39,304 nt of DNA from a virus. This document shows positions 5,622 to 39,304 of this stretch, in pieces. Location of the stretch: IMG/VR virus record IMGVR_UViG_3300036795_000114, positions 1 to 39,304 of that record; one strand, 5' to 3'. Each line of letters starts with the position of its first letter. Position 1 is the stretch's first letter. The position numbers were made by a program, and so were the translations under genes. The notes beneath the pieces were generated by a model. The model was not told the DNA's origin. It did no database searches and saw only the letters and a list, made by a program, of their open reading frames with translations.

Positions 5622-6850
5622 GGCAGGGTGACGTTGACGAAGAAGTCCGGACGGTTGACGGCGAGCGCCAAGCGCTCCTCCGCTCGGAGCAGAACCTTGT
5701 TCTCCGCCGCGAAGGTGCCGTGCTGCTCGAACACCCGGACACCGGACTGCGAGCGGTCGAACAGCGTCGCGCCCATCGAGTAGTTGCCCACGATGGTCTG
5801 CTTCGCGGTGAGCGAGTTCGAGCGCACGACGGGCAGGCCCCAGACGAACTGGGCGGGGCTGGTGGTGAACGCCTCGGCGTCGAACTGGCCGGTGTTGGCC
5901 GTCGCGGACTGCGTGGTCCGGCGGGTCATCATCGCCCAGAAGTCGCCCGGATTCATGGCCACGCCGTCCGCGAAGCCGTCCACGAGTTCGATCTTGCCGA
6001 TGGCGGTACCGATGGCCACGAGCGCGTCCGTCGAACCGGTCACGGTCTGCACGCCCGAGTACGAGAGGATGCCCTTCAGGTTCGGCGTGGTGCCCGAGCC
6101 CGAGAGAATTTGGCCTTCCTCGCGGATCTTGAGCATGTAGGTCAGGCGGCCGTTGATGTAGCCCATCAGCGTGAGGCCGTCTTCCACGATCTGCGTGGTG
6201 ACGGGCAGCGTGACGGCGATGACCTGCACGGGCGCCAGGTCCGGGGTCAGCTGGATCGTGGCCTCGGGCTTGGTGCCACCCTCGGAGACGACGTTCGCGC
6301 CGAGCTGATTCGCGATCGGGTTCAGTTCCCGGACGTACGGGATCGCGGCCAAGCCGGTCTGCTGCACGCCGATCAGATCACGAATGAACAACCGCTGGCG
6401 CCGCTGGTTGACCAGGAACGGCTGACCGACCGGGAGCAGGCCCGAGGAGCCGTTCGAGTCGTTCTCGGCCACGAGCGCGCGCAGCTCGACGCTGGGCGAC
6501 TCGCCGCGGGCGCCACTGCCGGCCCACGCCTTGAACGCCTCGTCTTCGATCACGATCTGCCCGGCCGAGCGCAGCTCACGCTGGTCACCGGCGCCGATGG
6601 TGCCGTTGTCGCCGCCACGCACCTGTCCGCGCAGGCCGGCGGGCATGGCCTCGATGCCACGCAGGGTCATGTTGACGTCGATGTCCTCGACCTCGGCGAG
6701 GAACGCCGAACGGGCGGTGTCGAACGCGGCCGAGTCGCCGCTGCGCAGGGTCTCGGACGTGGTGGCCCACTCCGAGCGCATCTCTGCCGCTCGGGTGGCC
6801 AGTTCATCGGCGCTCGCCTCGGAACGCCACTTGGCTGTGGTCTGGGGCAT
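5618..6850 (-). CDS. HK97-fold major capsid protein (410 aa)
   Basis: Forms the icosahedral shell. The first ~105 residues are charged and helical (MPQTTAKWRSEASADELATR), consistent with a delta/scaffold domain removed by the prohead protease. The rest matches HK97-type capsids: GGLLPVGQPFL-like E-loop entry region (GSSGLLPVGQPFLVNQRRQR), FIRDLIGVQQTGLAAIPYVRE, the P-domain region EEGQILSGSGTTPNLKGILS, and an A-domain with PAQFVWGLPVVRSNSLTAKQ and the C-terminal RAEERLALAVNRPDFFVNVT. The start ATG at 6850 follows TAGGAGT. It is preceded by a 99-bp gap that may hold a separate promoter. Confidence 0.95.
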   Translation of the reverse strand: MPQTTAKWRSEASADELATRAAEMRSEWATTSETLRSGDSAAFDTARSAFLAEVEDIDVNMTLRGIEAMPAGLRGQVRGGDNGTIGAGDQRELRSAGQIVIEDEAFKAWAGSGARGESPSVELRALVAENDSNGSSGLLPVGQPFLVNQRRQRLFIRDLIGVQQTGLAAIPYVRELNPIANQLGANVVSEGGTKPEATIQLTPDLAPVQVIAVTLPVTTQIVEDGLTLMGYINGRLTYMLKIREEGQILSGSGTTPNLKGILSYSGVQTVTGSTDALVAIGTAIGKIELVDGFADGVAMNPGDFWAMMTRRTTQSATANTGQFDAEAFTTSPAQFVWGLPVVRSNSLTAKQTIVGNYSMGATLFDRSQSGVRVFEQHGTFAAENKVLLRAEERLALAVNRPDFFVNVTLP

Positions 6851-6949
6851 TGCTACTCCTAGTAGTCAGGATGTCACTGGTACAGCATCCGCACCCGGCA
6901 GTCACAACAGCCCGTCACGAGTGGCTACGGCGGATCATAACGCCGTTTC

Positions 6950-7900
6950 TCAGTCGAACCACACCGCGCGCCAGTCGGCCGCGTGCGCCTCGTACGTCTG
7001 CGTGGCCGCCCACGCCTTGCCGCGCGCGGCCTGCGCCCGTCGTGCCTCTGCGTCACGGAGCAGCAGACGCCCCCAGTTCGCCCAGTCACGCGGCGTCTTG
7101 GCCGTCACGCACGCGCCGAACTCGGCCATGCGCTTGTACTCGGACGTGGGCGAGGCGATGACCGCCACGCCGGCGGCGGCCAGCTCCATGCCCTTGAGCC
7201 CGCTCTTCGCCTCGTTGAACGCGGACAGCTCCAACGGCACGATGCCGAGGTCCCATTCGGCGATGGCGCGCATGACGCCGTCCATCGAGTAGTAGCCGAA
7301 CGGGTGCGTTACCCCGTCGTGACCAAGGTGGCCGGCCACGATCGGCACGTCCTTCTCCGGCCCGAACATGGCGAACTCGGCGCCGGTGTCGCGCATCGGC
7401 GCGCCGAGCCCGCCGCCCACCTGAGCGGGGTCGTCCGGGTGCGACCACAGCGAGCCGTACCAGCCCACCCACAACGGCGCCTCGGGTCCGCGCGCATCAC
7501 GCCGGACGTCCAGGCGCCACGCCGGCACGCGGTTGCGCAGCACGGTGCCGTGGCCGTAGCCGTACCGGCGCGCGAGTGCGGGCGTGCTCGTGGTGACCAC
7601 GGTGGCGTACTTGCACGCGAGGTGCATGTGCTCGGTCGTGTACCGCCCGTACACGGCGTGGTTGGGCGAGACGGTGTCGAAACAGTCGTCCTGGTCCACG
7701 ATGACCCGGCGCCCCTCGGCCACCCACAGCCGTATCTGCTCGGCGATCCCGCCGTCGAACGGCCGGTTGAGGATCACCGTCTCAGCGTCGCCCACCTGCG
7801 GGAGGTGCTCGACCACAGGCACGCCCAGCACGCGCGCGGGTTCGAGCAGCCGGTAGAACGCCGACGCGTCCGCGTACGGCGCGTAGACGACGGCGCTCAC
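6950..7900 (-). CDS. GT-B type glycosyltransferase in the capsid operon (316 aa)
   Basis: Starts at GTG 7900, overlapping the MuF-protease stop as GTGA. The N-terminal half has VIVDQDDCFD (67-76) and VTTSTPALARRYG (102-114), patterns common in GT4-like enzymes. The C-terminal half has GWYGSLWSHPDD (146-157) and AFNEAKSGLKGMELAAAG (227-244), the family's E-rich nucleotide-sugar loop. It lies between the protease and the major capsid gene, so it should be expressed with head proteins. Phage-encoded transferases of this kind are known to glycosylate capsid or tail proteins in some actinobacteriophages. Donor and target cannot be read from sequence; modification of host wall glycans is the alternative. 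Confidence 0.82.
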   Translation of the reverse strand: MSAVVYAPYADASAFYRLLEPARVLGVPVVEHLPQVGDAETVILNRPFDGGIAEQIRLWVAEGRRVIVDQDDCFDTVSPNHAVYGRYTTEHMHLACKYATVVTTSTPALARRYGYGHGTVLRNRVPAWRLDVRRDARGPEAPLWVGWYGSLWSHPDDPAQVGGGLGAPMRDTGAEFAMFGPEKDVPIVAGHLGHDGVTHPFGYYSMDGVMRAIAEWDLGIVPLELSAFNEAKSGLKGMELAAAGVAVIASPTSEYKRMAEFGACVTAKTPRDWANWGRLLLRDAEARRAQAARGKAWAATQTYEAHAADWRAVWFD

Positions 7901-9120
7901 TTGTCGGAACCGATGCCGAACTTCTTCGCCGCCGCGTTGATCGCGGCCTTGACCTTGGCCAGGTCGCCCGAGCTGTACTGGCTCGCGTTCTTCTGCTGGC
8001 CGATGTAGCTCAGCGCGGCCTGGACGTGCTCCTTGGTGTCGAGCGGGTAACGCTTCTTCTTGTCCTTCTGGTAGCCGGGGTCGGCGTACTTCACGTCGCC
8101 GTACGGCTTGGCGGGCATCTTCGCGCGCACGGTGTGTCGAGCCGAGCGGGTGTTCAGCGGAGACGTGAGCGCGGCCGCCCACTCGTCGTCGGCCGCTGCC
8201 TGTGCCATGCGCAGCACGGCGGGATCCTCGCGCAGTTCGGCGTTGAGCAGCGGGTCCGGGTCGGACGGCTTGCCCGCGCCGCGCCAGTCGCCGTACGGGT
8301 CGCTGTCCACGGTGGGCACCATGCCGAGCAAGTACTGCAGCTCGGAGAGCCGGCTCGCGGCCTGGCTGAAGTAGCGCCGCGCAGCCTCCACGTCCTCCTT
8401 CGCCAGCTGATCGGCCACCCCGGACATCGCAGCGTCCACGGCGGCGAGCACGCCCGCCGGGTCCACCCCGTCGGTCTGCGTGCCGTCCAGGGCGCGGAAT
8501 TCGAACTTGGCCGCGGTGCGCGTCTCGGCGCTGCGGATCTCGGCCAGCGCGTGCGCGACGTCGATCTCCCCCTTCGCGTGCCGGGCGAACACGTCAGTCA
8601 TGGCGTCCAGGTCGACCTGTGCCGAGCGGACCGACTGCACGCCGGTGCCCGGCACCGCGCCGTTGAGCACGATGGAGAATTCCTGAACGGCGGCCACGCT
8701 CGTCTGCTTCATGACGCCGCGGTGCTGGCCGTCTTCCTCCTCCTCGCCGCGCCCGAATGCGAAGCTGAACTGCCCCATCGTTCCCGAGCGCAGCTGGGCG
8801 TGGGCCTGCCGGGCGCGCGGCACGGCGTCGAAATCGTCGAACTCGACGTCGCCGTAGAAGCCGTCCGACTCGTCGCGGTAGGACACCACCCGGCCGACGG
8901 GGTCCGCCCAGTCGTGGTTCCACACCACGGGGATGGCGTGGCCCTCGCCGGCGCGCTGCTCCAGAGCGCGGGTGAACACGCCCTTGGTCCAGCTCGTGCG
9001 GTAGGAGTCCGGCACGCCGTAGCTCACGAGCTTGGCGGTGAACCCTGGCTTGGCCTCGGGCTGCTCGGTGCCCGGCCCGCGGATCTCTACGATCTTCGCT
9101 GCCCTGGTCTCGGTCTCCAT
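7897..9120 (-). CDS. Possible internal start: free prohead protease/scaffold (407 aa)
   Basis: ATG 9120 (METETRAAKIVEIRGPG) lies exactly where the MuF-like part ends and the protease begins, preceded by GGGACGGAGCACC with a purine-rich GGAG five bases from the ATG. Nested same-frame products from head protease genes are known (lambda C/Nu3). The full-length fusion and a short form could both be made. This is inference from one ribosome-binding-like site. Confidence 0.5.
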   Translation of the reverse strand: METETRAAKIVEIRGPGTEQPEAKPGFTAKLVSYGVPDSYRTSWTKGVFTRALEQRAGEGHAIPVVWNHDWADPVGRVVSYRDESDGFYGDVEFDDFDAVPRARQAHAQLRSGTMGQFSFAFGRGEEEEDGQHRGVMKQTSVAAVQEFSIVLNGAVPGTGVQSVRSAQVDLDAMTDVFARHAKGEIDVAHALAEIRSAETRTAAKFEFRALDGTQTDGVDPAGVLAAVDAAMSGVADQLAKEDVEAARRYFSQAASRLSELQYLLGMVPTVDSDPYGDWRGAGKPSDPDPLLNAELREDPAVLRMAQAAADDEWAAALTSPLNTRSARHTVRAKMPAKPYGDVKYADPGYQKDKKKRYPLDTKEHVQAALSYIGQQKNASQYSSGDLAKVKAAINAAAKKFGIGSDK

Positions 9121-10038
9121 GGTGCTCCGTCCCTTGCCCTGGTGGTGGGCCTTGAACAGCGCCCGGCCTGCCGGTGTGGCCATCATAATGTTGGTGGCGA
9201 GCCCATCCGCCTGCGTCGCGGGGACACCTTCGCTGAGCAGCGCGTCCCGAAGCGTCGTCCACGGGTTGGGTGATCCGCCGAACCGGGCGAACCCCTCGGC
9301 GCCCGTCCAGTACTTCCACAGCTTGCTGCCCTTGCCGAACTCCAAGTTGCTCGCGCGCAACGTCGGGCTCACGTCGTCCACGTTCCCGCCCCCCTTGTGA
9401 GGTGGCCCCGCTTCGCAGAAGCAATGCGGGTGCACCCACCCCGGCCACCCGATCGGCGGCGGCGTGAGCGCATCGAAGTTCTTCCCGTCGGCCGCCGAGC
9501 AGCGCGCGCACTGATTCGGGTTGTCATCGCCGTACCAGCCCATCAGCACCTTGCCGTCGGCGTCCGGCTCCTGGCCGGCCACGGCGTCGGCCAGCTGCTT
9601 GAGCTGCTCGTCGCGGTGCGCCACGGCGTCCTTGTGCGCGGCGAGCAGCTGATCTTCGCGCGCCTTGGCCTTCGTGACCGTGTCGAAATCGCCCGTGGCG
9701 TACGCCTTGCTGAGCCGAATCGTGGCGGTCACGAGGTACGCTGCCCGAGCCCGCGCTTGCTCTTCCCCCGCGATGCGCTCGACGCTCTCCCCGACCCCCT
9801 CGGCGGCGTCACCATCGGGAGCAGGCGCGGGTACCGCCTTGAGTGCGTCGGTGATGAACGCCCCGAACTTGCGCTCGGTGAAGATCTTCTTCATGACCGC
9901 GGACGTCACGCCGGTGATGCCCGCCAGCGCCGCCTGCACGGTGGCCACGGACCCGGCCGCGAGCAGTGCCGTGGACACGGCCGCCGTCACGTCCCCCGCG
10001 TTACCGCCGATCGGCGGGGGCGGCTTGGGCGCGGTCAC
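7897..10038 (-). CDS. MuF-like minor head protein fused to prohead protease (713 aa)
   Basis: One chain holds several head-assembly parts. Residues ~80-210 are a MuF-type region with helices and a CxxC/HPHC cluster (C177, C180, H203, C206, C208). Residues 231-300 carry the actinobacteriophage head-protein motif GKGSKLWKYWTGAEG and NPWTTLRDALL. Residues ~330-465 are an S78-type prohead protease with candidate catalytic His375 (VVWNHDW) and Ser425 (MGQFSFAFG). A helical region follows, then a basic C-terminal module (YADPGYQKDKKKRYPLDTKE, DLAKVKAAINAAAKKFG) of the kind often found at protease or scaffold ends. GTG 10038 overlaps the portal stop. Met307 (ATG 9120) after GGGACGGAG could start a free protease/scaffold. 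Confidence 0.88.
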   Translation of the reverse strand: MTAPKPPPPIGGNAGDVTAAVSTALLAAGSVATVQAALAGITGVTSAVMKKIFTERKFGAFITDALKAVPAPAPDGDAAEGVGESVERIAGEEQARARAAYLVTATIRLSKAYATGDFDTVTKAKAREDQLLAAHKDAVAHRDEQLKQLADAVAGQEPDADGKVLMGWYGDDNPNQCARCSAADGKNFDALTPPPIGWPGWVHPHCFCEAGPPHKGGGNVDDVSPTLRASNLEFGKGSKLWKYWTGAEGFARFGGSPNPWTTLRDALLSEGVPATQADGLATNIMMATPAGRALFKAHHQGKGRSTMETETRAAKIVEIRGPGTEQPEAKPGFTAKLVSYGVPDSYRTSWTKGVFTRALEQRAGEGHAIPVVWNHDWADPVGRVVSYRDESDGFYGDVEFDDFDAVPRARQAHAQLRSGTMGQFSFAFGRGEEEEDGQHRGVMKQTSVAAVQEFSIVLNGAVPGTGVQSVRSAQVDLDAMTDVFARHAKGEIDVAHALAEIRSAETRTAAKFEFRALDGTQTDGVDPAGVLAAVDAAMSGVADQLAKEDVEAARRYFSQAASRLSELQYLLGMVPTVDSDPYGDWRGAGKPSDPDPLLNAELREDPAVLRMAQAAADDEWAAALTSPLNTRSARHTVRAKMPAKPYGDVKYADPGYQKDKKKRYPLDTKEHVQAALSYIGQQKNASQYSSGDLAKVKAAINAAAKKFGIGSDK

Positions 10039-11864
10039 GCCCCGTCCAGTAGCAGCGTGGCCGGTGCCAGCGGACGGAGACGGCCGAGCACCTCGTCCAC
10101 ACCGAAGCTGGCCTGCCACGGGTCGTCCGGCGTCAGGCCGCTGATCGACTCGAACACGGCGCTCGTGATGTCCTCGCTCCAGCCGTCCGGCTCGCGCACG
10201 CCGGCCGCCGCGAGCGCGGGCCCGAGGTTGCGCGCCATGCGCTCGCGCCAGTGGTCTGCCTCATACGCCAAGCCGAGGTCCAGCCCGGCGTGGGCGCGCT
10301 TCCGGCCGCCGCGCTTGCCCTCGATGCGGGCGCGCAGCTCGGCCGCCTGGTCTGCCAGCTCGACGGCCAGCTGACCACGAACCACGCCGAGCAGGTCGGT
10401 GCGCACGGCGTCGGCCCGCTTGGGCGACGGCGCCGGCGGCGGTGCGGCCTTGCCCGGCGTCTTGGTGGGCGGCTCGGTGCCTGCGTTGTCCGTGCCCCCG
10501 GCCGCCTTGTCCGCGGCGGCGAGCGCGGCCGCCGGGTCCGCACCGTTGCCGAGCACGTCGGACAGGCGGAGCACCGCGGTCGGGCGCGGCTTGGCCACGT
10601 CGGCGTCCGGGTCCGTGAGCTTGTCGAGCCCGCGATCGGCGCGGTACTCGTTGAGCGTGATGGTCCCGGCGGCCACGGCGGCGAGGCCCTCGTGCGCGTC
10701 GAACACGGGCGGCCGCCGCATCTCCGGCACGTTGGACGTGTCGAACCATCCGATGTCCTGCGGTCCGTCCACGAGCGGCCCGAACGCGGTGTTGAGCCCG
10801 TCGGCCAGCGTGCGGATGTGGCCGCCCACCGTGTCGCGCCAGTAGTTGGTGCGGTCCGTGGCCATGTTCGTGAACTTGGCGTCGGCCGAGTTGCCGAGGA
10901 TGGACAGCGGCACGCCGAACGCCACGCACATGTCGGCTATCCGGTTGTTGCGCAGGACGTCGAGCTGCGCGTCCTTCTGCGACGTGCCGATGACCTGCAC
11001 GCTCACGCTCTGCGTGGAGCTGGGCACCGTGCCGACCTCGCCTGGCTCGACGTCCGTCTCGGCGAACAGCGCCTTGTTGGCATTGGACGGGCCACCGAAG
11101 CGGCGGCGGAATTGATCACGGAACGAGCGGCGTGACTTCTGGTCCGCGAAGCTGGGCGTCGTCACCAGGTAGGCCGGCACGCCGCCGTTGCTCAGGAACG
11201 CGTCGTCGTACGCGTCGAGCAGCTGGCTGATCTTGATCCCCCAGTTCGCGAGAGAGAGCGGCGCCCGCGGCAGACGCACGTCCTCGTCACTGGGGTTCCA
11301 CACGTACGTGATGTCCGCCGGCTTGAACTCGCGGTAGCCGGGGCTGCCCTGCACGCCGTAGCGGAAGAGATCGAAGTAGCCGGGCGCGCCGATCGGCGCC
11401 ACCACCGGCACCACGTACTGGGCCATCAGCGGCCACAGCGCCACGATCTTGCCGGCGTCGTTGTACTCGTGCAGCCACGCGTACTTGCCGAGGATGAGCC
11501 ACTGTCGTGCGGTGTAGTTCCACAGTTTCGCCGCGCTCCACTGCGGGTTTGGCGAACCTGGTGCCGGCCCGAGGAGCTGCTGCATGGCCGTGGTCGGCCG
11601 GGGCGTGCGGCTCTTCATGTTGCCCGCGTAGAACGGCAGACCGCTGATGTCGTTGGCGATGCGCTCGATGCAGCGCGCGGCGTAGACGTTGCGGTTGCCC
11701 ACGCGCACGGCCTGAGGGCCCTCGTACGCAGGCCAGAGGGGCTGGTGCGGCAGGCCGTTGAACGACGGGTTGGCCAGCGCGCCGAGCGGCGGACGGCTCG
11801 ATGCGAGCGCCGGCGGCCGGGCGCGGTAGCCCGCGGCACGCATCGCCCAGTCAGTCAGTGCCAC
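10035..11864 (-). CDS. Portal protein (609 aa)
   Basis: Dodecameric portal for packaging and ejection. HK97/lambda-type features are visible: RCIERIANDISGLPFYAG near residue 66, KLWNYTARQWLILGKYAWLH, the wing-stem region DAYDDAFLSNGGVPAYLVTT, and the family core VAFGVPLSILGNSADAKFTN with FTNMATDRTNYWRDTVG. The C-terminal ~170 residues are an extension: a Pro/Ala linker (PPTKTPGKAAPPPAPSPKRA) and a helical domain. GTG 11864 is chosen because GGAGG stands nine bases upstream, within the end of the upstream small gene. Confidence 0.93.
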   Translation of the reverse strand: MALTDWAMRAAGYRARPPALASSRPPLGALANPSFNGLPHQPLWPAYEGPQAVRVGNRNVYAARCIERIANDISGLPFYAGNMKSRTPRPTTAMQQLLGPAPGSPNPQWSAAKLWNYTARQWLILGKYAWLHEYNDAGKIVALWPLMAQYVVPVVAPIGAPGYFDLFRYGVQGSPGYREFKPADITYVWNPSDEDVRLPRAPLSLANWGIKISQLLDAYDDAFLSNGGVPAYLVTTPSFADQKSRRSFRDQFRRRFGGPSNANKALFAETDVEPGEVGTVPSSTQSVSVQVIGTSQKDAQLDVLRNNRIADMCVAFGVPLSILGNSADAKFTNMATDRTNYWRDTVGGHIRTLADGLNTAFGPLVDGPQDIGWFDTSNVPEMRRPPVFDAHEGLAAVAAGTITLNEYRADRGLDKLTDPDADVAKPRPTAVLRLSDVLGNGADPAAALAAADKAAGGTDNAGTEPPTKTPGKAAPPPAPSPKRADAVRTDLLGVVRGQLAVELADQAAELRARIEGKRGGRKRAHAGLDLGLAYEADHWRERMARNLGPALAAAGVREPDGWSEDITSAVFESISGLTPDDPWQASFGVDEVLGRLRPLAPATLLLDGA

Positions 11865-14064: not shown

Positions 14065-17000
14065 TTACGCCGCACTCGCCCAGCGATCCACCGGTGCGTC
14101 CACCTCGGCGGTGATGGCCACGCCGTACAGGCTGGTGGTCATGCACTCGCCGAGGTAGGCAGCGGCCGCGTCGGCGTCCTCCTCGCGCACCATCGCCACC
14201 ACCTCGTCGTGCACCGGCAGGATCACGCCGCCGGCGTACGGGCCTGCGTCCCATCGCACGAGCGCGTCGATGAGCAGCTCTCGCGCGGTGCCCTGAATGG
14301 CGAAGTTCGGGCCCTTGTGCGGCAACGAGGTGTCGAGGTGGATCACGCGCCCGGCGTAGGTCGGGAACTCCGCCATACCGCCGCGGATGGCCGTCTTCAG
14401 CCCCTCGCTCCAGCCCTTGAGCCCCGGCGTCATGGCGTCGAGCACGTCCAGGCACCGCTGCGTGACCTCGTCGCTCAGCCCGGCCTGCCGGGAGAGGGTT
14501 TCCAGCCCGCCGCCGTACAGGCGCCCGAACACGATCCGCTTGACCGAGTAGCGCTGGGCCTTGGTCCAGCCGTCGCCGAACACGAGCGCGGCGATCTCAC
14601 CGTGCAGGTCGCGGCCTTCGTGCACGAACTGCATCAGCGTCGGGTCCTGGCTGAGCGCGGCGGCCACGCGCACCTCCACCGAGCTGAAGTCGGCCGCGAT
14701 GATCTTCATACCGGGGTCGGCCACGAGACACTCACGCATCCCGCCTTCACGCGCCACCTGCTGCAGGTTCGGCCGGACGCAGGACATGCGTCCGGTGTCC
14801 GCGCCGAGCGTGTAGATCGTCGGGTAGGTCCGGCTGTCTCCGCCCTGCGTGCTGCGCGCCCACGGCCTGATCATGTTCTTCAGCACCGTGGCGTCCCCGC
14901 GGTAGTCCAGGATCGTCTGAGCCAGCTCGCCCAGCTCGCCCGGCGCCGCGGTGAGCTTCTCCAGCACGTCGCCCGCGCCGCTGGCGTTGCCGCTCTCGGT
15001 GCGGGGGAGCGCCGCGCCCAGCGCGGTCAAGCGCTCGGTCACCTGCTTGGGGCTGTCCGGATTGTCCACTCCGAGCGCGTTGATGCGCGCGAGCTTCTCC
15101 GCGGCGCGCGGTTCCCGGGCGCTGAGCTGCTCACTGACGGCCTCTCCGTCCAGCTTGATGCCGAGCAGGGGCACCACGGCCGTGACGCGCTGTGCGAGCC
15201 GCTCACGCTCATCCACGGCCGGTGCGGGCTCGGGCAGCACACGCCGGATCGCCGTGCAGTCGAGCACGTCCGAGATCGCGTACCGGACCATCGTCGCGCA
15301 GCGCTTGTCGATCTGGAGCCACCCGTTCTTGGTCTCGGGGGTGTCCGGCTTGAGCTTCCATATCCAGCCGGCCGCCTTGCCGAGTTCGTCCTTGGCTGCC
15401 TCGGCCGCCGGGCTCACCGCGCGGTCACCAAGCAGCGTGCCGCTCAGCTCCTTCAGCCCGTCACCGTTGCCGGTCAGGTGCGGGTCGGCCAGCTTCGCCC
15501 GCGTGGCGGTGTCCACCGTCTTGGCGCACGCCGCCGCGTAGTCGGTGATCACGCCGAGCTTGGCCAGCGGCGCGAGGTCGGCCGTGTACGAGTGGGCGTT
15601 CAGCTCCAGCGCCTCGGACAGGAACCGATTGGCGAGGTCGCGGTGATCCTCATCGTCGGCGTCCAGATCAACGCCTTCCTGCCAGTCGCCGAGCTGGATC
15701 GACGTCACGGCGTACCGCGGGTCCCACTGCGGCAGCGCGTTCGTCTCGATGTCCACCCCGAGCGCGCCGCCGTTGCGCTCCAGCGCCATGCGCAGGATCG
15801 ACGCGGCCATCTCCAACGAGACCGAGCGGGGCTCCTCGCCCCGGCGCATGGCCGCGGGGAGCGTGAGCATCTCGCCGGCCAGCTCGGTCACCTTGGCCGC
15901 GCGGGCTGCCTGTGCCGGGGTGACGAAGCCGGGGACCACGCGGCCCGAGCCCTCGCACTTCACGCCGTTGACCTTGTGGGCCCGGATCTTGCCCTGTGTG
16001 GTCACGCCCGGCTCGTCGTTGCAGACGGGGCACCGGCTCATGAACGCGATATTGGTGGCGCGCGCCCCGGCGTCCGGGCCGAGAGGCTCCGGCGGGGGGG
16101 CTGGTGAGTTGGATGGTCGGTTTCCCGTTCCACTTACTTGTACTTTTTTCTCTTTATGATCTTGTGTGTTGTTGTTGTAGTGAATAGTACTGTGTTTACT
16201 ATCCATACCCTCCACAACAACAGTAGAATTAGGGTCTGACCTGCCGTTTTCCGGTGTGGTGGGTTTCGGCTCGGACCCACCACCACCGTCCACATCTCCC
16301 GAGGTGGACCCACCATTAGGAAAATTATTCACCCAACTGACATCGCCGCCGTTAGAGATTTTCAGCTGACGGACGTTGTGCATGGTGCGTTTGATGGAGG
16401 GAAACCCCAAACGGTTCATCGCCCGGCCCCACGCGGTCTCCGTAGGAATCGCGGTCCGCCGGCGGGTAGGCGCGTCCTCGTGCCAGGCCGCGAACGCGGT
16501 GTAGAGCGCCCGGCTCGCGGTGCCCTGGTCGTCCGGCGTGGTGCGCTCGAACACCCACTGCGCGAACACGTCTTGCGCCTCGGCGATCTCGTCGGCCACG
16601 GTGATCACGGCCATGGGAGCGGCGGCGGTAAGCGCGGACGTCCGGTCACCGAGCCACGCCGCGGTCTCCCGCATCAGCGCGGCCAGTACGCCCGGCGCCT
16701 CCTCGGCCCAGATAGCGGGGGTGAGTGCCCCGCGCGTGGCCATCACGGTGTCCCTGTCCCCCTCGCACGGGATGATCCGCATGCGGGCGCGCAGCGCGGC
16801 GTCCGCGATCTGCGGCTCATCGTTGGTGGACATCACGAGGGTGTGCGTGGGGTCGAACGTCACCGGATTGGCCCGCATGGCGTTGCCCGTGAGCGGCGCC
16901 CCGCCGGTCAGCTGCTTGAGCCGCTCGGCGGCCAGCCCCCCGCGGCGCGGGCCCTCGTCGATGAAGGAGAGCCGCCGTCCCTTGAGCGCGTAGATCACCG

Positions 17001-18768
17001 AGGCGTGGGCGTTGTCCGCGCCGGCCAGCAACCGGGGGTCCGCGGCGTGGGCGTAGGTGCCGAGCGCCCGCATGATCAGGGAGATGGTGGCCGACTTACC
17101 GGTGCGCTCGGACCCGTACAGGATGGGCAGCGCGGCGTCCGGATAGCCCGCGAGCGAGATGGAGAGCACGCGCAGCGCCCACGCCCGCACCTCGGGGTCC
17201 GGCCACACCGAGGCGATGAAGGCGTCCCACGCCGGCGTCGGCACCAGGGCCGGGGCGCACAGCGCGGCGTGCAGGTGGGGCGTGCCGGGGTCCAGGTGGC
17301 TGACCACGGGCTGCTCACCGGATGCGCGCAGGTCCCACGGCACGCCACCGGCCCAGAGCACCTCGGCCTCGGTGTCCAGCTCGGACAGCCGCACCGTGGC
17401 GAAGTGGTCCGCCCCGCGGGTGATATCGCGAATCTTCTTCGCGACCCGGCCCGAGCCCGCCGAGGAGGTGAAGATCTTGCGGCGCTCGAACTGCCAGTGC
17501 GCCTCGCCTTTCTCCTCGTCGGCACCGGCTTTGGCCCCGACGGGCATCAGCCGGGCGAGCACCGAGACTGCCCAGCCGGCCATGTCCTCGGACTCCCGCC
17601 ATACCTCGGGCCCGCGCACGACGTACGTGCCGGCGTCGGTGCTGGCGCGCAGGCCGGGGTAGGCGCGTTCGAGCACCTGATCGGCCAAGCCCTGGTCCGA
17701 GGTGTCGCGGTCGGGGTCGAACGGGTGGCGCCCGATCACGTCGTAGAACTGCCACTTGGCCTCATCGGAGGTCTCGGCTCCCGGCGGCCCGGACACGTCG
17801 TGTGCGGCGTACACGCTGAACGGGCGATCGCCGCCGTCCCGGAGACCCTGTTCGATCCACAGATAGTCGTCCTGGTCCACCGAGCCCCAGCAGTCGCGCA
17901 CCGCGCACGAGAGGACGTCGAACGCGTCGTCGGCCGAGAGGTGCCCGGCACCGACGTAGCCGCCCAGCGTCATGGCCGCGCGCATCAGCACGGTACGGAA
18001 GCCGGTGCCGGTGGCGGGCTGGTGATGGGCGACCTCGGCCAGCTTGGCGGCGATCACGCGATCGGCGACCTGCGAGGAGTGCGGCTCGCCGCGGGTGACC
18101 TGCTCGGCGTAGGCGGCCAGCTCGGGCGTGAGGTTCGTGGTGTCCGGTTTGTCTGAAAACCTCGAGCTTTTTCCGCTGCGAGCCTTGGCCGCCAGCACCG
18201 CGGCGGCGAGCACCTCGGACCGCGGGCGCGGCGTGAAGTCCGGTACTCGCTGCCACCGGTACGACGCGGGCTCACCGCTGGCCTTGCTGATCTTGACGGT
18301 GGGAGCGATGAACGCGAATCCACGGCCCGAGCCGTCGGGCATGCCGCCCTTGACGTCGACGCCGGGGTAGACGCCGTCCCGGGAGCCCTCGCCGAGCGGG
18401 TGCACGAACAGGTGGAAGCCGCCGGACGGCGTAGTCTGCCCGGCCAGCACTGAGGGGTTGACGTCGTCCATAACGTTCGCGGGGAGCGTGCCGCCCGAGC
18501 GGGGGTCGACGTCCAGGCAGTCCATGGTGTGCCCCATCACAGCGCAGAGCGCGTATCCGGGCTGCCACCGGTCGACTACCGAGGGGTCGGGTTGGGTCTG
18601 CTGCCAGCCCTTCGGGAGGACGAACCCCACCTTGTGCCAGTGGGCATCGTCGTCGGGCTGGACGGGACGGGCGAGGAAGAGCGGCACCCCTGACTCGACG
18701 AGACCCCGGGCCACCTGTAGGGCTTCCGAGGTCTCGGGGTCGAACATGTTGGGGTTCTGTGGGTACAC
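14065..18768 (-). CDS. Fused primase-polymerase / SF3-like helicase / family A DNA polymerase (1567 aa)
   Basis: Three replication activities in one chain. Residues ~13-190 form a bifunctional primase-polymerase with catalytic-type LDVDPRSGG (85-93) and TTPSGGFHLF (112-121). Residues ~500-700 form a D5/SF3-like ATPase: Walker A YGSERTGKSA (551-560), Walker B LSFIDEG (600-606), sensor VMSTNDEP (645-652), arginine stretch ALRARMRI. A low-complexity linker (812-905) leads to a zinc knuckle (C913, C916, H931, C938). The 3'-5' exonuclease follows with D1006/E1008 (VDIET), D1064 and Y1163/D1167. The polymerase has TGRMSCVRPNLQQ, motif A D1360 (DFSSVEVR), motif B R1406/K1410/F1414/Y1418, and motif C H1520-D1521-E1522. 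All key residues are present. GTG 18768 follows AAAGG. One continuous frame; no stop in the linker. Confidence 0.93.
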   Translation of the reverse strand: MYPQNPNMFDPETSEALQVARGLVESGVPLFLARPVQPDDDAHWHKVGFVLPKGWQQTQPDPSVVDRWQPGYALCAVMGHTMDCLDVDPRSGGTLPANVMDDVNPSVLAGQTTPSGGFHLFVHPLGEGSRDGVYPGVDVKGGMPDGSGRGFAFIAPTVKISKASGEPASYRWQRVPDFTPRPRSEVLAAAVLAAKARSGKSSRFSDKPDTTNLTPELAAYAEQVTRGEPHSSQVADRVIAAKLAEVAHHQPATGTGFRTVLMRAAMTLGGYVGAGHLSADDAFDVLSCAVRDCWGSVDQDDYLWIEQGLRDGGDRPFSVYAAHDVSGPPGAETSDEAKWQFYDVIGRHPFDPDRDTSDQGLADQVLERAYPGLRASTDAGTYVVRGPEVWRESEDMAGWAVSVLARLMPVGAKAGADEEKGEAHWQFERRKIFTSSAGSGRVAKKIRDITRGADHFATVRLSELDTEAEVLWAGGVPWDLRASGEQPVVSHLDPGTPHLHAALCAPALVPTPAWDAFIASVWPDPEVRAWALRVLSISLAGYPDAALPILYGSERTGKSATISLIMRALGTYAHAADPRLLAGADNAHASVIYALKGRRLSFIDEGPRRGGLAAERLKQLTGGAPLTGNAMRANPVTFDPTHTLVMSTNDEPQIADAALRARMRIIPCEGDRDTVMATRGALTPAIWAEEAPGVLAALMRETAAWLGDRTSALTAAAPMAVITVADEIAEAQDVFAQWVFERTTPDDQGTASRALYTAFAAWHEDAPTRRRTAIPTETAWGRAMNRLGFPSIKRTMHNVRQLKISNGGDVSWVNNFPNGGSTSGDVDGGGGSEPKPTTPENGRSDPNSTVVVEGMDSKHSTIHYNNNTQDHKEKKVQVSGTGNRPSNSPAPPPEPLGPDAGARATNIAFMSRCPVCNDEPGVTTQGKIRAHKVNGVKCEGSGRVVPGFVTPAQAARAAKVTELAGEMLTLPAAMRRGEEPRSVSLEMAASILRMALERNGGALGVDIETNALPQWDPRYAVTSIQLGDWQEGVDLDADDEDHRDLANRFLSEALELNAHSYTADLAPLAKLGVITDYAAACAKTVDTATRAKLADPHLTGNGDGLKELSGTLLGDRAVSPAAEAAKDELGKAAGWIWKLKPDTPETKNGWLQIDKRCATMVRYAISDVLDCTAIRRVLPEPAPAVDERERLAQRVTAVVPLLGIKLDGEAVSEQLSAREPRAAEKLARINALGVDNPDSPKQVTERLTALGAALPRTESGNASGAGDVLEKLTAAPGELGELAQTILDYRGDATVLKNMIRPWARSTQGGDSRTYPTIYTLGADTGRMSCVRPNLQQVAREGGMRECLVADPGMKIIAADFSSVEVRVAAALSQDPTLMQFVHEGRDLHGEIAALVFGDGWTKAQRYSVKRIVFGRLYGGGLETLSRQAGLSDEVTQRCLDVLDAMTPGLKGWSEGLKTAIRGGMAEFPTYAGRVIHLDTSLPHKGPNFAIQGTARELLIDALVRWDAGPYAGGVILPVHDEVVAMVREEDADAAAAYLGECMTTSLYGVAITAEVDAPVDRWASAA
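16131..16240. other. AT-rich island inside the replication fusion gene
   Basis: Bases 16141-16200 contain only 18 G/C of 60, against about 70% elsewhere. The stretch encodes the Asn/Ser/Thr/Lys-rich linker (around residues 843-880) between helicase and polymerase modules. It has short inverted repeats (TTGTTGTTG and CAACAACA on the plus strand). It may mark the fusion joint, a relaxed linker, or a duplex-unwinding element of an origin; none is proven. Confidence 0.6.
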
Positions 18769-37904: not shown

Positions 37905-39304
37905 GCTACCTTCCTCCTCAGCTCAAGCTCGCGGGACACCATCGTGGCCAGCACGTACGGATCCTGCCCGGGCGACTGGTAGACGTTGATCGTAATCGGC
38001 GCCGCCGTGGCAACCGGCGCGCTCGGGCGCCCGGTGTCCGGGTACTTGGAGTAGTCGCGCTGGCCGTTGTTGATGGCCGCCAGCTCGGTGACGTTCTTCG
38101 CGGTGTCTTTGGCGTTGATCACCGCTTCGGTGTTCGAGACGAGCGCGAGCATGCTGTCCGAGGTGCCGGTGCCGGGACCGCTCAGCTTCCCGCCGGCCGC
38201 CACGTCCACGGCGCCCAGTGACGCCGCCAGCCCGCCCGTCGCGAACCGCTGGATACCGCCGCCGCCCACGAGCCCGCCCACGCTGTTCGAGCCGAGCGGG
38301 AGGATGCCCCCGGGCGGCGTGCTCGTGCGCACCGGGATCGTGATCACGCTGTGCAGGTAGCTGTCCAGGAAGCCGTTCACGGTGCCGTACGCCGAACTGG
38401 CGTTCGCCTTCACGGTGATGGTGCCCACCGACCCATCGGCGTAGCGCACCGCCGAGAGAGTGCCGTCCTTGGCCGCTTGGTTCAGACCGTCGATGGTCAT
38501 GTAGCCGCGCGAGCCGTTGGCGTACTGCACGGCCGCCACCGTCTTGTTGGTCACGGGGTCCTTGAAGCCGTCCAGGGTGATGGTGCCCGTGGACCCGTCG
38601 GCATACTGCACCGTCTCGTTGATCTTGCCCGTGGCCGGGTCCGTCACCGCCGAGAGGATCATGGCGCCCTGCGTGCCGGCGGCGTACGCGGGCAGCGCGT
38701 CGATCGCGGCCTTGGCCTGCTTGGTGTCCGACGTGACGTCGGTGACGATGGTCTTCGGGATGAGCCCGTACTTGTCCGCGAGGGCCCCGGCCTCTTTCGA
38801 GGTGAGCCCCATCTTCTGCGCTACGTCGATGAACCGGTCCCGCTGCGTCTGCAGCGAGTCGTTGACCTGCTTGGTCGCCTGAGCGAACGGCACACCGCGC
38901 CGCACCATCTGGTCGATCCCGGACGCCGCGTTCACGAACGAGCCCTGCAGCCCCTCGGCGAGGCCCTGCAGCGAAGAGCCGTTCTTGCTCACCGTGTTGA
39001 TCGTGCCGTCCACGTTGATCAGCGACTTGCCCATACCGTCGGCCGAGGTGGTGCCGTTCTTGAGCCCGTCGGCCATGCCGCGCAACGCGTCGTTGCCCTG
39101 CTTGATCGCATCCTCGAACACGGGCGTCCGGCCCGATAGAATGTCGAGCGCGCTCTTCAGCGCGGTCACCTTGTCCGCCGTGGTGGCCGTGGTGCCGCTC
39201 AGCGTGTCCATGGCCGAGGACAGCTCGGTGGTCGGCTTGACCGTGGCGGCGCTGGCCGAGGCGAGATCCTTGTTGTCCTGCGTGGCCTTGGCGAAGTCAC
39301 CCGA
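37901..39304 (-). CDS. Tail tape measure protein, C-terminal part (to residue 1034)
   Basis: Continuation of the gene begun at 1828; the frame is continuous through 39177/39178 and ends at 37901. It contains a three-unit beta repeat (about residues 794-869: ETVQYADGSTGTITLDG, AAVQYANGSRGYMTIDG, SAVRYADGSVGTITVKA), a Gly-rich segment (SVGGLVGGGGIQRFATGGL) typical of tape measure C-termini, and a final helix (YVLATMVSRELELRRKVA). Only 37901-39177 is unique; 39178-39304 repeats 1-127. Confidence 0.92.
   Translation of the reverse strand, partial: SGDFAKATQDNKDLASASAATVKPTTELSSAMDTLSGTTATTADKVTALKSALDILSGRTPVFEDAIKQGNDALRGMADGLKNGTTSADGMGKSLINVDGTINTVSKNGSSLQGLAEGLQGSFVNAASGIDQMVRRGVPFAQATKQVNDSLQTQRDRFIDVAQKMGLTSKEAGALADKYGLIPKTIVTDVTSDTKQAKAAIDALPAYAAGTQGAMILSAVTDPATGKINETVQYADGSTGTITLDGFKDPVTNKTVAAVQYANGSRGYMTIDGLNQAAKDGTLSAVRYADGSVGTITVKANASSAYGTVNGFLDSYLHSVITIPVRTSTPPGGILPLGSNSVGGLVGGGGIQRFATGGLAASLGAVDVAAGGKLSGPGTGTSDSMLALVSNTEAVINAKDTAKNVTELAAINNGQRDYSKYPDTGRPSAPVATAAPITINVYQSPGQDPYVLATMVSRELELRRKVA
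39178..39304. repeat. Terminal 127-bp direct repeat, copy B
   Basis: Identical to bases 1-127; see copy A. Removing one copy restores a 39,177-bp circle in which the tape measure gene is intact. Confidence 0.95.

Follow-up and report, generated by a model that had tools for sequence, protein, structure and literature searches.

Single-chain replicases and embedded origins described to date

Proteins that join several replication enzymes in one chain are already known, as is an origin of replication that lies inside the gene of its own initiator. GP55 of the lactococcal phage 1706 is a four-in-one replicase with demonstrated activities, arranged in the order helicase, PriS-like domain, helical domain and polymerase; its polymerase belongs to family B, and the accessible part of its report makes no mention of an embedded origin (PMC12205980). 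OS3173 Pol, a 1,606-aa polyprotein of the Thermocrinis Octopus Spring virus, combines an N-terminal primase/helicase-like region with a 3'-5' exonuclease and a family A polymerase (PolA) and has relatives that are fused in some cases and separate in others, but its N-terminal region is of the DUF927/COG5519 type and a PrimPol is not described (PMC7689252). Pfprex of Plasmodium likewise unites a primase and a helicase with a family A polymerase capable of proofreading in one polypeptide (PMC7341739). It is, however, encoded by a nuclear gene, is cleaved and draws on primase and helicase families different from those of the protein analyzed here. Its primase is of the TOPRIM type and its helicase of the DnaB type.

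ORF904 of the pRN1 replicon unites an AEP primase with an SF3 helicase and has its origin directly downstream, but no polymerase domain is fused to it and the origin is a stem-loop without iterons (PMC4234260). The origin of phage lambda does carry iterons and lies inside gene O, which codes for the initiator itself (PMC3985674), though lambda O is an initiator only, without enzyme domains. In phage P4, the winged helix of the alpha protein binds the repeats of the origin, followed by unwinding and priming (PMC4234260), and the origins of related satellites place two sets of iterons on either side of an AT-rich region (PMC6092414).

Here we analyze the 39,304-base IMG/VR virus record IMGVR_UViG_3300036795_000114 over its whole length, which we refer to as the window. 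We are fairly confident that one of its genes encodes the single-chain replicase of a tailed actinobacterial soil phage and harbors its own P4-type origin within the DNA that codes for the linker of the protein. Our search of the open-access literature found no description of this domain set or of an origin within the linker of a replicase.

Genomic setting and domains of the replicase gene

The window carries a 127-bp direct terminal repeat (1–127 and 39178–39304), and deletion of one copy leaves the frame of the tape-measure gene continuous across the ends (1043 codons from stop to stop), so that the record resembles a complete circular genome. The strand of the replicase also encodes terminase, portal, head protease, major head protein, tail proteins and endolysin, whereas genes for an exonuclease, a helicase and a WhiB-like regulator lie on the opposite one. 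These neighbors point to a tailed phage, and the WhiB-like regulator supports an actinobacterial host.

An earlier note, made from the letters of the window alone, had drawn attention to an uninterrupted frame of 1567 codons with motifs for priming, an SF3/D5-type ATPase, 3'-5' exonuclease and Pol I-type polymerase. The frame is where the note had placed it, and all of the motifs that it named are present, with the catalytic ones conserved in relatives; the note had left out the strand, which is the minus strand. The gene and its surroundings are laid out as follows:

14065–18768, minus strand: single-chain replicase ORF of 1567 aa, with a GTG start at 18768 and the stop at 14065
18184–18768, minus strand: putative PrimPol (AEP-like) domain, aa 1–195, with DVD (86–88), TPSGGFH (113–119) and GVDVKGG (136–142)
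16369–17271, minus strand: SF3/D5-type helicase, aa 500–800, with Walker A GSERTGKS at 17092–17115
16324–16701, minus strand: post-helicase region, aa 690–815, proposed as origin-binding domain from its position only, by analogy with P4 alpha
15769–16368, minus strand: linker, aa 801–1000, disorder-prone, with low third-position GC (GC3), holding the origin-like DNA element
15955–16032, minus strand: zinc knuckle, aa 913–938 (CPVC...H...C), a subclade trait
15229–15771, minus strand: 3'-5' exonuclease domain, aa 1000–1180, with conserved catalytic residues
14080–15201, minus strand: family A DNA polymerase domain, aa 1190–1563, matching PF00476
26069–26713 and 23101–24876, plus strand: WhiB-like regulator and helicase (phrog_62), in a rightward block

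Across 30 aligned fused homologues, the catalytic residues are invariant or nearly so. The conserved set includes D86 and D88 of the PrimPol domain, while the SF3 motifs (G552, G557 and K558 of Walker A, D604 and E605 of Walker B, N649 of motif C) and D1360, K1410 and H1520-D1521-E1522 of the polymerase are invariant. The exonuclease is of the DEDDy kind, with D1006, E1008, Y1163 and D1167 invariant and D1064 conserved in more than 90% of sequences. Pfam matches the C-terminus of the window protein to DNA_pol_A (PF00476; 1.2e-46, 159.8 bits versus a cut-off of 34.3), placing it in family A and not in the family B of GP55, and DUF5906 exceeds its cut-off at 1.9e-7. The DUF927 region of OS3173 Pol was found in none of the 30 fused proteins scanned, whose matched families include DUF5906. 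DNA_pol_A_exo1 matches 16 of the 30 relatives but not the window itself, and the P4 primase C-terminal family of NCBIfam (TIGR01613) matches at 2.1e-29 and 102.4 bits, slightly below the cut-off of 108.7 that two other loci (L023 and L063) do reach. PHROGs profiles cover much of the chain with DNA primase (phrog_1156, aa 52–796, 2.3e-54) and DNA polymerase (phrog_17, aa 984–1565, 6.5e-80), and the solved relative of the helicase by sequence is "putative primase C962R" (8.5e-5).

For the N-terminal domain of the window, a Pfam match to Prim-Pol (PF09250) falls below detection; this family matched two of eight N-termini of the window type (best 1.7e-6) and 16 of the 30 fused proteins. A profile comparison of the window N-terminal type with the other one gave no alignment, and searching PDB sequences with the N-terminal types gave no match. 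Its motifs, the phrog_1156 match and its sister sequences nonetheless suggest that the window N-terminus is a PrimPol. The origin-binding part is proposed to sit just after the helicase, as in the P4 alpha analogy, and a profile of aa 690–815 returned no winged-helix or other solved-domain match among PDB sequences. AlphaFold models of the two halves, made before the deep set of relatives, had a mean pLDDT of 36 and 51 and were too poor for use.

The fusion recurs in uncultured and integrated actinobacterial phages

PrimPol, SF3 helicase and proofreading PolA in one chain, as the earlier note had read them, are found in the same order and in one frame at about 40 other loci, which lie on IMG/VR contigs and in prophages. 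Our first viral scans yielded two full-length relatives, L007 (1548 aa) and L009, together with L002 and L008 (5' end cut). All four span the joint in one frame, and no stop or frameshift was found at 16099–16335, where the note had proposed to look for one. A second viral scan used the primase-helicase half, and thus no selection for fusion, to recover 43 loci. Every two-domain locus among them is fused, with one ORF of around 1540–1910 aa from stop to stop, except where contig ends cut the locus. Generally, loci were picked by helicase or polymerase motifs and not by fusion. A first scan of genome contigs gave no match; a genome scan uncovered fused prophages in Micromonospora, Nocardioides, Labedaea and Haloactinopolyspora as well as two actinobacterial MAGs with the fused gene, one of them Jatrophihabitans. 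One member from the genome scan was rechecked within its genome and has an open frame of 1568 aa with no stop.

In the cultured phages that we inspected (of Microbacterium, Arthrobacter, Streptomyces and Curtobacterium), primase/helicase and polymerase are separate adjacent genes, either directly next to each other or set apart by small genes, HNH endonuclease genes or methylase genes. Three different queries of INPHARED gave, among the matches listed, no record covering 80% of the query. The view that the arrangement is unusual needs qualifying: the fusion is widespread in uncultured or integrated actinobacterial phages, and single-chain replicases with a different domain make-up have been published. 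The Streptomyces plasmid pS1D4-14.2 (L063, 2705–7045) encodes a 1446-aa protein with DUF3854, D5_N, DUF5906 and PolA that, judged by these matches, is a comparable fusion in which another N-terminal module, the primase-like DUF3854, takes the first place. It is annotated merely as "phage/plasmid primase, P4 family", which the domain reading corrects.

Two relatives have insertions in the polymerase domain. In L029 (ORF 5942–11398), this is an HNH intein with matches to Hint, HNH_3 and Intein_splicing at aa 1334–1575, and L048 (ORF 5909–11575) has an insertion of nearly 300 aa with no intein match.

The linker is variable as a protein and stays open as a frame

The linker protein is long, variable and disorder-prone, with an identity of 21–42% between relatives, and third-position GC is low in the linkers of all members. 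In the frame of the gene, 41 of 41 linkers are free of stops, whereas each of the 41 is interrupted in both other frames. Dinucleotide shuffles would leave only 1.8 of the 41 linkers open by chance, which argues that the frame has been selected to stay open. The zinc knuckle that the earlier note had seen at the joint is present in the window and in four relatives and absent from the other linkers; we therefore dismiss it as a conserved feature of the joint.

An origin-like DNA element within the linker-coding sequence

Beyond the contents of the earlier note, the linker holds an origin-like element at the level of DNA. The linker is the most repeat-dense 500 bp in most loci, with repeats in both orientations. 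The iteron ACCCnnCA (TGnnGGGT on the sense strand; longer sense consensus GGTGnnGGGTT) occurs 286 times in linkers (11.73/kb) versus 290 times outside (0.52/kb). About 30 linkers also carry a CAG[G/C]TCA box on the sense strand. This box falls into phases 0, 1 and 2 in 12, 8 and 7 loci, respectively, giving RS, AQ/AG or QV in the protein depending on the locus; being read in all three frames, it is conserved as DNA. Relative to the box, iterons occupy fixed sites at -70<, -49<, -38<, -20>, +29<, +38< and +116> (where < denotes TGnnGGGT on the sense strand and > its inverse), and a site at -60 is found in just 8 of 27 loci. Iteron copies within one genome share their core dinucleotide (0.89 versus 0.53 when shuffled), and this includes unpaired copies, as expected of iterons bound by a protein and not of RNA stems. 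The window shows the following parts of this element:

16308–16315, plus strand: iteron ACCCACCA (sense TGGTGGGT), conserved site near -70
16275–16282, plus strand: iteron ACCCACCA, conserved site near -38
16257–16264, minus strand: inverted iteron ACCCACCA, conserved site near -20
16237–16243, minus strand: CAGGTCA box, anchor of the element
16207–16214, plus strand: iteron ACCCTCCA (sense TGGAGGGT), conserved site at +29
16121–16240, unstranded: AT-rich stretch (37.5% GC), the AT-richest 120 bp of the window and the proposed unwinding site

The window has only four canonical iterons, i.e., four of the seven consensus sites, plus the box. With both strands of the window considered, box and four sites coincide at one place only, and nowhere else does the box go with a site pattern of this kind; the best arrangement elsewhere has two sites without a box, and 100 shuffled genomes had at most three sites, or at most one where a box was present. 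On its own, the 9-mer ACCCNNCAC is no more frequent window-wide than expected (9 found versus 9.1 expected); the unusual feature is the clustering and spacing. Not all members fit this picture, since L007 lacks both box and iterons, L009 lacks the box and has a single iteron, and in L020 and L023 the box is accompanied by degenerate iterons. L007 and L009 may use a different origin sequence. No iteron cluster was found between the separate genes of cultured relatives.

As side observations, the linkers of L007 (8365–8937) and L009 (7669–8271) are AT-rich, and these two loci share a distinct helicase type. The linkers of L029, L033, L035, L036, L042 and L067 have an alternating CA/CG-rich run (ACACACGCGCGC...) downstream of the iterons.

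The layout of the element closely follows the annotated origin of P4. The GenBank record of P4 lists type 1 repeats of ori at 9310<, 9320<, 9331<, 9353>, 9396< and 9406< (sequence GGTGAACAG), which translates to -21<, -10<, 0<, +22>, +65< and +75< relative to the third repeat. The linker element, when counted from its -38 site, reads -22<, -11<, 0<, +18>, +67< and +76<, where -22 is the -60 site of 8 of 27 loci, so the family consensus has the same order (<<<><<) at P4 spacing. The iteron of one locus (L030), GGTGACCAGTT, resembles the P4 repeat. In P4, the ori repeats recur in crr, which lies directly downstream of the alpha gene (L083, GenBank P4), a position that corresponds to that of the linker after the helicase in the window gene. 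The P4 system with alpha, ori and crr is alike in joining primase and helicase with what is here a proposed origin binder and in an iteron order and orientation that are the same at near-identical spacing, whereas alpha has a TOPRIM-type primase and no attached polymerase, and the origin is outside the gene.

Modules are exchanged and the iterons follow the helicase

Also new relative to the earlier note is a pattern of module exchange. The window and L007 are 90% identical in PrimPol and 95% in polymerase but only 40% in helicase, whereas L007 and L009 are 61% identical in helicase versus 33% in PrimPol and 65% in polymerase, and L008 and L009 are 95% identical in polymerase versus 43% in helicase. 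In the polymerase tree, the window and L007 are sisters, and joining their helicases is rejected (p 7e-6), as is joining the polymerases of L007 and L009 (p 5e-51). The helicases of L049 and L072 fall within the fused clade and their polymerases in another clade alongside the Streptomyces plasmid protein, and a single polymerase clade for all fused proteins is rejected (p 0.013). A common clade of the window, L007, L008, L009 and L002 helicases is not rejected (p 0.08), so that exchange is argued from three tests, those of window/L007, of L007/L009 and of the fused clade. L069 and L070 combine the same PrimPol type and PolA with a helicase of the D5_N/P4 type. These trees and identities mean that modules recombine among fused replicases.

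Across 26 loci, iteron similarity is correlated with helicase distance (rho 0.43, p 0.004; partial correlation given polymerase 0.42, p 0.001) and not with polymerase distance (rho 0.10, p 0.24; partial 0.00). The sequence of the iterons hence appears to follow the helicase and not the polymerase, although this could partly be simple linkage.

A proposed working of the replicase and its alternatives

On balance, we favor the reading that the gene is a complete replicon in one ORF, with all fork enzymes and a linker-embedded origin, and that phages exchange helicase and origin together as one cassette. The region that directly follows the SF3 ATPase, or a neighboring part, would bind the iterons in the linker-coding DNA, and the SF3 ring would melt the adjoining AT-rich stretch and then unwind the template. 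The PrimPol domain would lay primers for extension by the tethered proofreading PolA, and the frame through the origin would stay open to let a flexible linker join both halves. Plausibly, an alpha-like gene, a crr-like origin and a polA gene, arranged in this order, merged into one frame.

If true, this would be a minimal and portable replication system in which one gene gives origin, priming, unwinding and proofreading synthesis, and which could become a compact tool for primer-free DNA amplification. Its natural domain swaps would reveal for which modules an exchange is tolerated, and the way in which iterons covary with the helicase would offer a ready test of initiator/origin coevolution.

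One alternative, that misassembly, sequencing error or a chance open frame merged two genes, could appeal to the separate neighboring genes of the inspected cultured phages and to the odd codon usage of the window linker, yet its probability is negligible given the same join at about 40 other loci, isolate genomes included, and the 41 of 41 linkers that are open in frame; the independent loci and the stop statistics rule it out. The earlier note had named close relatives with the two halves always apart as a sign of misassembly; every locus of this clade in which both domains are present has them fused, and separate halves were seen in the inspected cultured phages. A chain that is cut in the linker into primase-helicase and polymerase would agree with the length, variability and disorder of the linker and has a precedent in Pfprex, whose polypeptide fragments such that the polymerase parts from the primase-helicase (PMC7341739). 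We consider such a polyprotein unlikely, given that the poor conservation of the linker makes no shared cleavage site evident and that GP55 was active as an intact chain (PMC12205980); an embedded origin could hold even then. Internal translation starts within the replicase ORF are possible as well.

The linker repeats could alternatively act in the mRNA by pausing, frameshifting or attenuation, as the -38< and -20> repeats are able to form a hairpin and the box is nearly always on the sense strand. This is very improbable, however, when all copies of a genome share one core including unpaired direct ones, spacings of around 10 and 21 bp fit proteins bound along one face of the DNA, the layout matches the annotated P4 origin, and frames +1 and +2 run into stops in 41 of 41 linkers. 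Somewhat less far-fetched, though still improbable, is an autoregulatory operator or partition site for a phage protein: Regulation is another possible role of iterons, and the element lies within a transcribed gene. An origin better accounts for the adjoining AT-rich stretch, the position in a replicase gene, the covariation with the helicase and the P4-like layout.
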